From Hirudinaria manillensis (lineage: Eukaryota; Annelida; Clitellata; Hirudinida; Hirudinidae), in NCBI GenBank assembly GCA_034509925.1, contig CM067528.1, positions 9,957,501 to 10,021,500 on the forward strand: a DNA stretch of 64,000 nucleotides, written 5' to 3'. Numbering within the stretch: position 1 is the first letter of the stretch; every line of letters starts with the position of its first letter. This document shows, one piece after another, positions 13,451 through 21,984 of the stretch. A program made the translations under genes and the position numbers. Under the pieces are notes generated by a model, which was not told where the DNA came from, did no database searches, and was given only the letters and a program-made list of their open reading frames with translations.

Positions 13451-14550
13451 CACCAGCGTGATAGGAGCCTGACAACAAAATGCGTGAGCCCGACAACAAA
13501 GTGGATCAGAAAATAAACAAAAACAATTATTTGCATACAGCCAATCATAGGACGGAGGTGTGATTTGCATGTGATTAGGGCGGACCTGAAATAATGAAGT
13601 AAATCAGAAAATAATTTTTAATGATAAATAAATAAAAAGGCTCAATGATAGCCATTGTTTAAAAATATTTAAAGTATTTTAGCTCCAAGATTTTAAAATG
13701 ATAATAACTTTGGTACTAAGGGTTTTATATGAAAACCACAATTAATGCCTGAATTTATCTTTCGCATCTTTCTAACTGGCTGAGTGCCCGAAATAAACAA
13801 TTGTCCGCCATTGTTCTTGCGGGCAAACTCAAATTTGAGTCAAATAGCAAGTTTTAAAAGTCCCAGAACCCTCCCTAATCAAGCAACTGTATTTTTATAA
13901 GCTGTTACATTTGAAAAGCTGCCTATTACTGCCTAATTTCAATGATTTCACCTACTAAAATTTGCGAAATAAGAGTTGTAACAAAAACCAGCAATTGATA
14001 TGTTAAAATAAAGGTTTAATTATTAGTAATATTTTCAAAAACCGGCGTAGTTTGAAATGCATTAATAATGGAGTTATCAAACAAACTTTAAATTACAGCA
14101 ACAATAACTTTGAAATTCATTTATGTCATAGATTTCGGTCTAACTAAGCTTTTGATACATTTCCAGTAAATGTAGTAGGCATTAAGTAAGAGTTTTTGAA
14201 AAAAAAGACTAAAATAATATCGAGTTATTTGAATTTCAATGAAGGGACGCGATCCATTTTAAGTCTCAAATTAATATATTGAGATGGTTTTCTGGGCCCA
14301 TTTTCAGATATGTTGTGTATTAATCATATATCTCTCCGATACCAAACTTTCGGTTCCCAATTTGTTGTGGTTTTAGAGTAAATTGGAAATAACAAAGCAT
14401 CGCAACTTTTGAGAATCGAGTTCGGCGAGCAAGTCCAGTGACTTGAGTTTGCGCCCTATAGGCTCTTTTTCTCAATTACGAAAATTAGAAAAAAATTAAA
14501 TTCAAAATAATTTAAGCAATAGGTTAATAATAAGAAATGTGAATGATAAA
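13451..14550. mobile_element. Truncated left arm of terminal-inverted-repeat element (copy 1)
   Basis: Begins with the same target-site copy (CAAACAT, 13444-13450) and the same terminal inverted repeat as the complete element at 28246. It is cut at 14550 by the duplication junction. The right end, the second arm and the satellite array are missing here. The shared left insertion site shows that the insertion came before the duplication. Confidence 0.9.
14524..14550 (-). other. Novel C-terminal tail of copy-2 receptor, read from transposable-element sequence
   Basis: These 27 bases belong to the element arm that ends copy 1, not to the receptor gene. Read in the receptor frame they give eight codons (FIIHISYY) and a TAA stop. 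The same bases in copy 2 (29319-29345) are not joined to any receptor exon. Confidence 0.85.
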
Positions 14551-17500
14551 CCACTCAATGACTGGAAAGGGTCGTCCATGGGCGTTGCACGTCATGACGA
14601 AGGTGGAATTAAACTGAATCACCATGTTTTCATCCATTGACGAAACAAACCAGGGGAATTCCAGAGCTGAATTTACGTATAATATATAATTATTAACCGT
14701 TGTTATCGACATTATTGGCATAAATGTAAATAAAAAACTTTCAGGCCTGATAATTCTAACAAGGTCAGATCGAGCCAACAAGATTAGAAGGTCAAAGCAA
14801 CTGAATCAGCCATCCCTAATGTTAGGATCATCTTCTATGCATCATAATTAATTATATTTATAATAATAACAATAATAATAATAATAAATTGTTATCATAA
14901 TAATTCTTACTATTATTAATTAAACTTTCAAATATTACTTACGAAGTACTTTGAGTCTGTGCTTAACCTTGACCCTAGCATTGGGTTGTCCGTTCCAGCC
15001 CTGATGGCGCGAAGCGGAGCAGACGTATGTCGTGTCGTCCATGAATTTGACAGAGGTGAAGGTCATTGAAAGTACGAACGAATGCTTTGTTCTAGGAAGA
15101 AAAACAAAGTGACGGTTGGATAAGGATTGTTGGAAATAATAATAATATATAATAATAATAATAATAATAATATAGTATTTAATACAATTTTAATTATATA
15201 TAATAATTTTATTATAAAAAAAAACTTAAACTTCCTTAACCCCGTTTCATTCTGCACTTTTATTTCCCTTCTCTCCACGACCTCGTGATATTCGCTTTCC
15301 GTCGACGGGTCACGAAATGCCCACTTGACACTGGCGGGGTCAAAGATCACGACGTTGACCCAGCACGAGAGCTTGACCTTGTCGCCAACGACGCTCTCCT
15401 CTGGAGTGTCCGTGGTGATTCCAAGTCCGTCCGGAACGTCTGGAGAAATCATCATCATCACCATCGTCGTCGTCATCTTTATCATCATCATCATCATAAT
15501 CATAATCTCACCGCTAACGACAAACAGATAAGAAGCACTTTGCGAGCCCTCTGAGTTCCGAGTCTGGCAGAGGTAGTGGCCCGTTTCCTTGGCAACCACC
15601 GTCAGGTTGGAGGCGTGGCTACCGTGAACTGGCTGCGCGAAAAGTAAACAGTTTTCAATGAATAAAAGTTGTTTACGTCGTCGTCGTCATCATCATCTGA
15701 ATATTAAATCAAATCAATTATTTTAATTAATTAATAAATAAATGATGCATATTGGTGTTGATGATAATGATGATGAGGAGGAGGAGGAAGAGGATGACGA
15801 CGATAATTTGAATGGTGATGCTTTCCCAGACAGACATATATTTTTCCAAAGTACCTCGTTCAGAAAGTTTGGAGTTTTCTGTGGATAGTGCCATCTATCG
15901 ACAACGTCAGCAGCATTGGGAAAAGGTGGAGGGTCGGAACAGGTGGAAAAGTCAGAACATGGATACCAATTCCACCAAACGTCCGGAGCTGGAACGCCGT
16001 CGAACTGACAGAGGAGGCTGTAGGTGGAGTTAAGTTGATACACCTGCTCCTGATTGGTTATCCGAGCGATGGGCGATACTGAATATTCAGATTTAAAATT
16101 ATGAATTACGACAAAATTATGCTATTAATAATTACGAGTCATCAATACGTACATACGTACAATACGTACATAAGTATCATCACTAAACATTTCTGAAATC
16201 ATTCATCAATAATCTGATAAAATATAATTAATAATACAAATTAAATAACATTACTTTATTATTTTGATCGATTAAAGTGTTAACCTTTGACCGTAAGGTT
16301 AAAGGTCAGTGAACTTGTTAACCCTGCTGCTTCTGCCTGCAGTTTATAGATGCCAGTGTCCGAGGGGTTCGGATTGAATATCGTCAATTCGCTGTCTTTT
16401 ACGGAGATTCTAAAATTATTATTATTACTATTATTATTATTATTATTATTATTATTATTATTATTATACTATATCGTTAAATATAAATATATTTTAATAA
16501 ATAAAGTGGACTTATTAATTATTTATAGTAAAAAAATAATAATTATGTTTTTAAAATCAATTTTCATGTGTTCACCTAAAATTTTTGTCCAGAGGTTCGT
16601 CATTTTTGAACCACGTAAGGGCGGGAACTGGACAGGCGTATATTTCGGCCTTGAATTGAACTTTGGCCTGTTTGGGGCTGACCAATTGGGTCTTCATGTC
16701 AGGTCTTGCGTTCAGGTTTATGAACGGTTTTTCTGAAATTATAAAACCAACGATTTAAAAAATAATAATAAATATTTAATTATCAGTTTTAAAATATTTG
16801 TCTAAATGTTAAACAACAGATATTATGAGTCATATAAAATGAAGACGACGACGACGACGATAGTGACCTACCGTGAACTTTGACCTGGAAGGATATACTG
16901 GCCATCTTCTTACCGATGGAATGTGCATCGTAGACGCTGCACACGTATGAACCTGAGTCTTGAACTTTCAAATCCTGAAGGAGGAAGCTGATCTTGACCT
17001 TAGTTGACCCCTGACCTCGATCGAAAAGCCTTTCTTGGACGCTCTTGCTCAACCTATCGGACTGTCAGGAGAAAATCTATTTATCTTTAATACGGTCAAA
17101 GATGATGGCATTATTATTATTATTATTATTATTATTATTATTATTATTATTATTATTATTATTATTATTATTATTATTATTATTATTATTATTATTATTA
17201 TTATTAATTAAATAATAAAGATTATTAAATAATGTTTTGAAATATTTTATGCAATCTAAAATATCAATATAATGACATAACATAACTTAATATAATATAA
17301 TAACAATATCACATAATAAATATAAAAATACATATCATGAAAATTAATTATAATAATTATTATAATAAAGTTAATAATCTTTCCGCCCACATGTGATTGG
17401 TTGTTCGGAAGTATCCAATTGAAAGCCAGGGAAGTCTTTCTATCAATTTCTCCAATGCAATCAAGGGTAAGATTCTCTCCAGCCAACCAATCAGAACGAG

Positions 17501-20500: not shown

Positions 20501-21984
20501 AAATGACGTGACAAATGTTCAAGGGTGGGAGGCATGTAATTACAGTTGAGCACATATGTTGTGGCAACAGCTGGTCAGTTGTTGTCTTTGTTGTTATTAT
20601 TATTATTGTTGTTATTATTATTTATTATTATTATTATTATTGTTATTATTATTTATTATTATTATTATTTTTTATTATTTTTATTATTGTTGTTATTGAC
20701 GATGAATTGTTAACCCTTTACAGTTGAAACAATTATGACTTTTTTATGACATTGCACATGGCGAATGCGAAACTCGCAGTTGTCGATAAAAGGCGCTTTT
20801 GACAACATTTTTATTTTCTTTAACATTATAATTTAAAAGAAATAATAATAGCAATAATAATAATAATAATAATAATAGGAATATTTGTAATAATAAATAA
20901 CAACAAATCGTATCAGATTGACAAATAAAGATCCCGCCTAAGATGCCAATAACAATAATACCAAGAAATAATTTCTATTTGTAACTAATTTCTGAACGAA
21001 AATAATTTAATAAAAATAAGTAATAATCATTATAATAATTTTAAACACTAAAAAAAGACAATGAAATTGAAAGAAAAACTTAAAAAAATAATTTCAATTA
21101 ATTTAAATTATTTTAAATCTATTTTTATTTTTCTTTGAGAGTTTTAAGTTAACTTCTTCACCGGTTCGTGGAAGATTAGTAATAGTTAATTGATGTTGGA
21201 TGATGCATTTTAAAGTGCTGTTTATTTCTTTATCCTAACATCGTTTTGAATTCTAACTAATTGTAGGCCTAAGTTTGTAATCACGTGTTTGTTTGTTTGT
21301 TTTTTATTCGAACAAGTAACGCACGATTATTCGTCACGAGTTCAACAGAAATCCACGGGGATGGTCATTGACCGTTGGTCAAGCCCCACGGTCCGAAACA
21401 AACCAAGCCCCCGGTGACAATAGATTGCTACACAACTCCCCAATTGAAATTATACATCATCGTGCAAGACATCATGGCTGCAGACTCACAATCAGTTTTT
21501 TTATATCAAGACTTTAGGAAGAAATTTAAATTTATTGATTTTTAAATTGACTATTAATTATTATTTATTGGCAAACAAGGTAATTGAAAAAGATAGAAAT
21601 AGAAATATTTTCAAGTAAACAAATTTCTCTATTTCCTAAACAAGACCTGGTGGAACATTAACGACATTAATACTCTGTTTAGGACTTCAATACTCACGTA
21701 TTGCCAGGTCACTGGTCGTGTGGCGTGACACTCGAGGGTAACGTTGGTAGCAGTTCTGACGGCCACCCTGTTATTAGGCACCTTTCCATTAAACGGAAAA
21801 ATAGAGTTCTCTGGAGGTTCAATGGATACCGTTGTGATGGTAAGGTTCGAGTGAATTTCTTTCTCTGACTTACCTTTGGACAAGAAAAATTGAATGCTTA
21901 ATCATTCATTGGTTTAAAAGTCGAAATACACTTACTTTGGCTAACAAATGAACAGAATAAAAGGTAAAACAAAATCTTTGCCAT
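14524..21984 (-). CDS. VEGFR/PDGFR-like receptor, copy 2: truncated in Ig7 by the duplication junction, predicted secreted
   Basis: Same gene as copy 1. Exons: 21984-21936, 21873-21698, 19198-18907, 18252-17941, 17533-17391, 17061-16872, 16732-16576, 16409-16285, 16078-15855, 15632-15512, 15439-15241, 15091-14943 and 14666-14524. The last exon joins in phase 1 and encodes the first half of Ig7 (FNSTFVMTCNAHGRPF, then PVIEW). The Trp codon TGG ends exactly at 14551, and the duplication junction follows. Across it the frame adds FIIHISYY and stops at 14524. The exon lengths sum in frame to 759 residues. The product has a signal peptide and Ig1-Ig6 plus half of Ig7, with no membrane segment or kinase. 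By analogy with soluble VEGFR1 it could bind ligand without signalling; that is inference. It differs from copy 1 by seven amino acids that I could see, all in Ig1-Ig2. It may instead be an unexpressed broken duplicate. Confidence 0.85.
18398..18867. repeat. Pentanucleotide array, copy 2, with degenerate central block
   Basis: Counterpart of the 3591-4060 array. The outer ATATT blocks are still uniform. The left half of the GTATT block (about 18480-18620) has picked up TTATT, TTTTT, TGGTATT and short units, so the two copies of this array have clearly diverged in structure although total length is similar. Confidence 0.95.
19260..21620. other. Receptor intron 2, copy 2
   Basis: Counterpart of 4440-6840 with the same microsatellites and islands. 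Several arrays differ in length or purity, for example 20590-20690, which is an interrupted mix of ATT, GTT and TTT units, where copy 1 has a nearly pure ATT run. No coding sequence. Confidence 0.7.

Follow-up and report, generated by a model that had tools for sequence, protein, structure and literature searches.

The window analysed here, a stretch of 64,000 nucleotides from the leech Hirudinaria manillensis (GenBank assembly GCA_034509925.1, contig CM067528.1, positions 9,957,501 to 10,021,500 of the forward strand), was found to carry a direct repeat in which positions 1-14550 match positions 14807-29345 with 98.1% identity over 14,613 aligned columns. Taken as a whole, the locus is best explained by a young tandem duplication, in direct orientation, of a unit of about 14.8 kb, the truncated second copy of which could yield a secreted VEGFR-like ectodomain; the chances of this explanation are judged to be about even. 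One breakpoint would lie inside the exon for the seventh immunoglobulin (Ig) domain, Ig7, of a gene for a receptor of the VEGFR/PDGFR type, and the other in the interior of a dispersed repeat that lies upstream of an adjacent EGR-like gene, so that the unit would double this gene together with the 5' part of the one for the receptor. The receptor of copy 2 would then be cut in Ig7, its exon continuing in DNA of the repeat. Provided that this copy is transcribed, with a transcript end within the repeat, it would yield a secreted protein made of Ig1-Ig6 and half of Ig7, which might in principle bind ligand but could not signal.

Copy 1 of the unit occupies positions 1-14550, the left edge of the window cutting it 256 bases before the counterpart of the junction, and copy 2 occupies positions 14551-29345 (14,795 bases), its 14807-29345 part being the one that aligns with copy 1. 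The duplication junction, between 14550 and 14551, links the dispersed repeat to the Ig7 exon, each at an internal point. Base 14550 (counterpart 29345) is the last one common to both copies of the dispersed repeat; past it, the intact repeat reads GCCGAAG and the junction reads CCACTC, and the intact repeat that closes copy 2 on the right extends beyond 29345. All 41 genome matches listed for the dispersed repeat, the one at the right end of copy 2 included, run through the junction point, the search having scored the best 40 of 121 first-look candidates, among the rest of which shorter copies, or ones ending at the junction, may occur. Judged from these alignments, both breakpoints look interior, to a dispersed repeat on one side and to a coding exon on the other. 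A natural transposon end at this point is unlikely given the scored matches, and an assembly gap was rejected, since the sequence there contains no N. The dispersed repeat itself (window 28795-30171) consists of two related units about 830 bases apart with 78% identity, an arrangement seen at many places in the genome, and at the right end of copy 2 it is adjoined by a tandem array (window 30280-32264) whose units measure about 171-173 and 375 bases.

The receptor gene of copy 2 lies on the minus strand (21984-14524) and was modelled with 13 exons, from an ATG at 21984 to a TAA at 14524, encoding 759 residues. All exon borders are AG/GT and the phases are compatible; the weak donors (gttgtg, gtgggc, gttaac, gtactt and gttaag) are identical in copy 1. 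The signal peptide and the division of the Ig domains by pairs of exons were judged by eye, aided by Pfam and PDB matches. Exon 1 (21936-21984) carries the ATG and a signal-peptide-like start (MAKILFYLLFCSFVSQS), and Ig1 is encoded by exons 2 (21698-21873) and 3 (18907-19198). The following exons are covered by the PDB match as well as by the gene model: exon 4 (17941-18252) for Ig2, exons 5 (17391-17533) and 6 (16872-17061) for Ig3, exons 7 (16576-16732) and 8 (16285-16409) for Ig4, exons 9 (15855-16078) and 10 (15512-15632) for Ig5, and exons 11 (15241-15439) and 12 (14943-15091) for Ig6, the donor of exon 12 being in phase 1. Exon 13 (14524-14666), placed by the gene model, is the cut one: it encodes 39 residues of Ig7 up to Trp-751 (codon 14551-14553), followed by FIIHISYY and the stop, both read from the repeat, and it has no 5' splice site.

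Much of this had been claimed in a preliminary description of the same DNA, namely that copy 2 has its own signal-peptide exon and all exons for Ig1-Ig6, that its Ig7 exon reaches the Trp codon, meets the junction and stops after eight new residues, and that the exon sum is in frame; the model and the translation of the 13 exons bear these points out, with the signal peptide recognized by eye. The description also held that no membrane segment or kinase could follow, which is right; a scan of the whole 759 residues disclosed no membrane-like stretch. Membrane helices usually have a mean hydropathy above about 1.6; the highest 19-residue Kyte-Doolittle mean in the product is 1.33 (residue 165), and that of the signal-peptide-like start is 0.99.

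The best solved relative of the predicted product is VEGFR1 (PDB 5t89, E 1.4e-33), which is colinear with it over residues 161-690, corresponding to Ig2-Ig6. Chains of VEGFR1, VEGFR2 and PDGFRalpha fill the top six places among 183 matched PDB sequences (E up to 1, of which the best 60 were shown). Two Pfam families scored above the cut-off of 27 bits, Ig_VEGFR-1-like_5th (27.7) and Ig_PDGFR_d4 (31.6), and VEGFR-1-like_Ig-like scored below it (24.5). With domain borders drawn by eye, copy 2 holds Ig1-Ig6 and the first part of Ig7, and copy 1 is seen to Ig6. On its sequence, copy 2 encodes an ectodomain of the VEGFR/PDGFR type.

The predicted product has the anatomy of a soluble decoy, with a putative signal peptide, ligand-binding Ig domains and neither membrane segment nor kinase, and it resembles mammalian sVEGFR-1 and sFlt1-14 in consisting of Ig1-Ig6 without these last two elements. 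In the account of sFlt1-14 given in PMC5983705, that form keeps part of Ig7 (residues 657-705) and adds a new, probably disordered tail; copy 2 likewise would continue into part of Ig7 and then into a new tail, which, unlike that of sFlt1-14, is of 8 residues and is predicted from the gene model. The mammalian proteins come from one gene by splicing or polyadenylation, whereas the end of the leech product is set by a genomic junction and not by alternative splicing or intronic polyadenylation. Of the secreted decoy proposed in the preliminary description, the ectodomain anatomy cut by the junction and the lack of a kinase stand, while secretion and the decoy role are kept here as predictions.

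Partial tandem duplications of the 5' part of a gene, which leave a 3'-truncated copy, form a general class. The leech locus shares with it the direct repeat, the exon-internal breakpoint and the truncated copy with its own upstream region; it differs in that the breakpoint is placed so that a secreted part of a receptor could remain, and in that the copies diverge in blocks. Among the open-licence papers listed by searches of titles and the starts of abstracts, none describes this locus or a VEGFR decoy that arose by duplication.

Several observations weigh against a young duplication that yields a secreted ectodomain. On the side of the product, the Ig7 fragment of copy 2 contains one cysteine only, Cys-739, and AATAAA is absent from the 1.6 kb past the stop. 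On the side of the duplication, the differences between the copies, counted without simple repeats and in blocks whose borders were set after the differences had been seen, are unevenly spread. Block 1-2962 has 8 differences in 2,685 sites, all of them inside 964-981; block 2963-7040 differs at 82 of 3,266 sites (2.5%); block 7041-11005 has 3 differences in 3,965 sites; block 11006-12007 has 20 in 1,002; and block 12008-14550 has none in 2,539. In fixed bins of 500 bases the dispersion is 6.73, against a mean of 1.07 and a maximum of 2.22 in 2,000 shuffles. Thus, one simple duplication followed by mutation alone, which would give more even divergence, does not account for the pattern; it fits two haplotypes, joined by unequal exchange or by the assembler, or else gene conversion between the copies. 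To the same side belong two facts about the assembly: the methods section of PMC10671345 describes no haplotig purging, and positions 22501-32500 of the small contig C17 are colinear with C13:7389051-7399050 over 10 kb in three blocks with 91-95% identity. By this likeness C17 is perhaps an unpurged haplotig of C13. The search for haplotigs covered 3 of 9 small contigs with one 3 kb piece each; the piece of C20 matched C20 alone, in which a part of it recurs, and the piece of C22 recurs in C22, in C19 and at many sites close to the ends of chromosomes.

These observations bear on the possibility that two haplotypes of one locus were laid end to end by the assembler, in which case each chromosome would have one receptor gene and there would be no truncated copy; this is unlikely, though it keeps an appreciable share of the probability. 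The assembly (148,429,096 bases, 23 contigs) is described in PMC10671345 as made from PacBio HiFi reads (23.8 Gb, mean read 18.73 kb) with NextDenovo, NextPolish, YaHS and Juicebox, and as comprising 13 chromosomes of 14.76-8.30 Mb (147.43 Mb in total), nine small scaffolds (1.16 Mb) and a mitochondrial genome of 15,581 bp, with 3.1% of BUSCOs duplicated. An artefact would agree with the haplotype-like blocks, with the lack of a purging step in those methods, with the duplicated BUSCOs and with the resemblance of C17 to C13, and the left end of copy 1 is beyond the window edge, where the sequence reads N. Against it, the join between the copies contains no N and offers no homology for an overlap, repeat interior meeting exon interior, and a false tandem join would need a read with exactly this adjacency. 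A random chimaera, for its part, would not be expected to bring two stretches of the same locus together in direct order. The mean HiFi read is longer than the 14.8 kb unit, which favours a real structure, and the assembly is smaller than the 155 Mb estimated from k-mers for the species in another study (PMC10087013), and so is not inflated overall. On balance, a real and young duplication is favoured over an artefact with reasonable confidence, and the structure is probably present in the animal.

The receptor of copy 1 (exons 1-12, 134-7188, minus strand) has the same exon borders and phases as that of copy 2 and contains no stop. The two agree at all but 10 of 2,137 coding bases, and neither shows a frameshift, a stop or the loss of a splice site in exons 1-12. 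An intact receptor next to the truncated one, as expected in the preliminary description, could not be confirmed: copy 1 shows exons 1-12 only (7188-134), is visible to Ig6 and leaves the window at its left edge before Ig7, and copy 2 holds the one match to the Ig7 exon in the searchable genome, the sequence that adjoins copy 1 to the left of the window reading N. Copy 1 would presumably continue to a kinase. An open frame of 294 residues on the same strand further left (L010:4016-4897), where the tail of the receptor could be, had no Pfam match. A second receptor elsewhere in the genome was sought and none was found, 25 of the 30 matches falling within the two copies and the other 5 being weak (E 3.2e-6 to 0.0035).

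In copy 2, the cut exon 13 lacks a donor and can serve as a last exon only. A polyadenylation site after it was looked for, as the preliminary description had suggested: in the 1.6 kb past the stop there are no AATAAA and two ATTAAA (14020 and 13622), with 4.2 +/- 2.0 expected for the pair of hexamers in 500 first-order Markov sequences, so that they are fewer than expected. TATAAA occurs three times past the stop (13899, 13729 and 13303). The hexamer count argues neither for nor against polyadenylation.

If the duplication is real, transcription from the promoter of copy 2 might instead read on, with exon 12 spliced to exon 2 of copy 1 and the cut exon skipped. In place of a soluble decoy this would give a membrane receptor whose Ig array is doubled (to 13 Ig domains, should copy 1 be complete), or else a message that is unstable; we consider this quite improbable. 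It is consistent with the missing 5' splice site of exon 13 and the missing AATAAA, and the donor of exon 12 and the acceptor of exon 2 are both in phase 1, such that exons 1-12 of copy 2 and exons 2-12 of copy 1 together form 1,408 codons with no stop. However, 5 of 10 other acceptors tested (exons 4, 5, 7, 9 and 11) are stop-free too, so the in-frame join of exon 12 to exon 2 is weak evidence, permissive rather than telling, and transcription would have to cross the EGR-like gene of copy 1, which stands between the receptor copies.

The EGR-like gene is on the minus strand in both copies. In copy 2 (26405-27752) the N-terminal frame starts at the ATG at 27752, and the zinc-finger frame lies within 27421-26408 and is followed by TAG; in copy 1 (11609-12974) the N-terminal frame is identical over 246 bases and the zinc-finger frame is open, exceeding that of copy 2 by one codon. 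Both frames are thus open in both copies, and the divergent block 11006-12007 overlaps the gene of copy 1. The zinc-finger frame encodes three C2H2 fingers at its C-terminal end, as in EGR proteins (three stretches of Pfam zf-C2H2), and these match EGR1 (PDB 4r2a, 94 residues) at 3e-35, the first short three-finger chain among the matches; nine longer multi-finger sequences (ZNF568, Aart, ZBTB24, PRDM9, CTCF) outrank it by whole-sequence score. No EGR-specific model was among the 20 Pfam families listed for the zinc-finger frame, and the N-terminal frame (82 residues) had no Pfam match.

The open EGR-like frames also leave room for the view that the duplication is real and the receptor of copy 2 is an unexpressed or decaying by-product, any selection acting on the second EGR-like gene. 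This reading is given a slim chance. It agrees with the nature of the coding differences between the receptor copies, 7 of the 10 changing the amino acid, which as a rule of thumb is about what the absence of constraint gives; against it stand the undamaged exons 1-12 of both copies, though the duplication is too young for decay to be expected.

A homeobox gene (L010:2337-3305, plus strand) was found beside the receptor locus, with a Pfam Homeodomain match at 6.7e-14. A 43-residue piece of it matches GSX2 at 4.3e-14, and only an engrailed chain with two matching stretches ranks higher. Human GSX2 itself adjoins genes for receptors of this class. In PMC2020491, the ParaHox paralogons of vertebrates are reported to hold pdgfr, kit/csf1r and vegfr genes. 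The leech locus is similar in that a receptor gene is near a Gsx-like homeobox gene, and different in that it has one receptor, read in its ectodomain only, and an EGR-like gene. It may perhaps be an annelid instance of the ParaHox and VEGFR/PDGFR neighbourhood.

Elsewhere in the genome, a full-length match to COX1 was found at C9:3026446-3027786, with a score equal to that of the match on the mitochondrial contig C23; it could be either a nuclear copy of very recent origin or mitochondrial sequence incorporated in the chromosome. The antistasin family had 63 matches in the genome.

According to PMC2765724, VEGF drives the growth of vessels in another leech, Hirudo medicinalis. In its boldest form, the reading of the locus would be that one partial tandem duplication made, in one step, a gene devoted to a soluble decoy of the VEGFR type, with the second EGR-like gene as a passenger, as a genomic counterpart of the spliced sFlt1 of mammals, or else a receptor whose Ig array is doubled by read-through; as it stands, either outcome is rather doubtful. 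Should the structure prove to be a haplotype artefact, it would be a warning that truncated receptor genes in the H. manillensis assembly need read support. If instead the truncated copy is real and expressed, it would be a receptor decoy born in one mutational step, through a duplication still young enough to be seen and dated.

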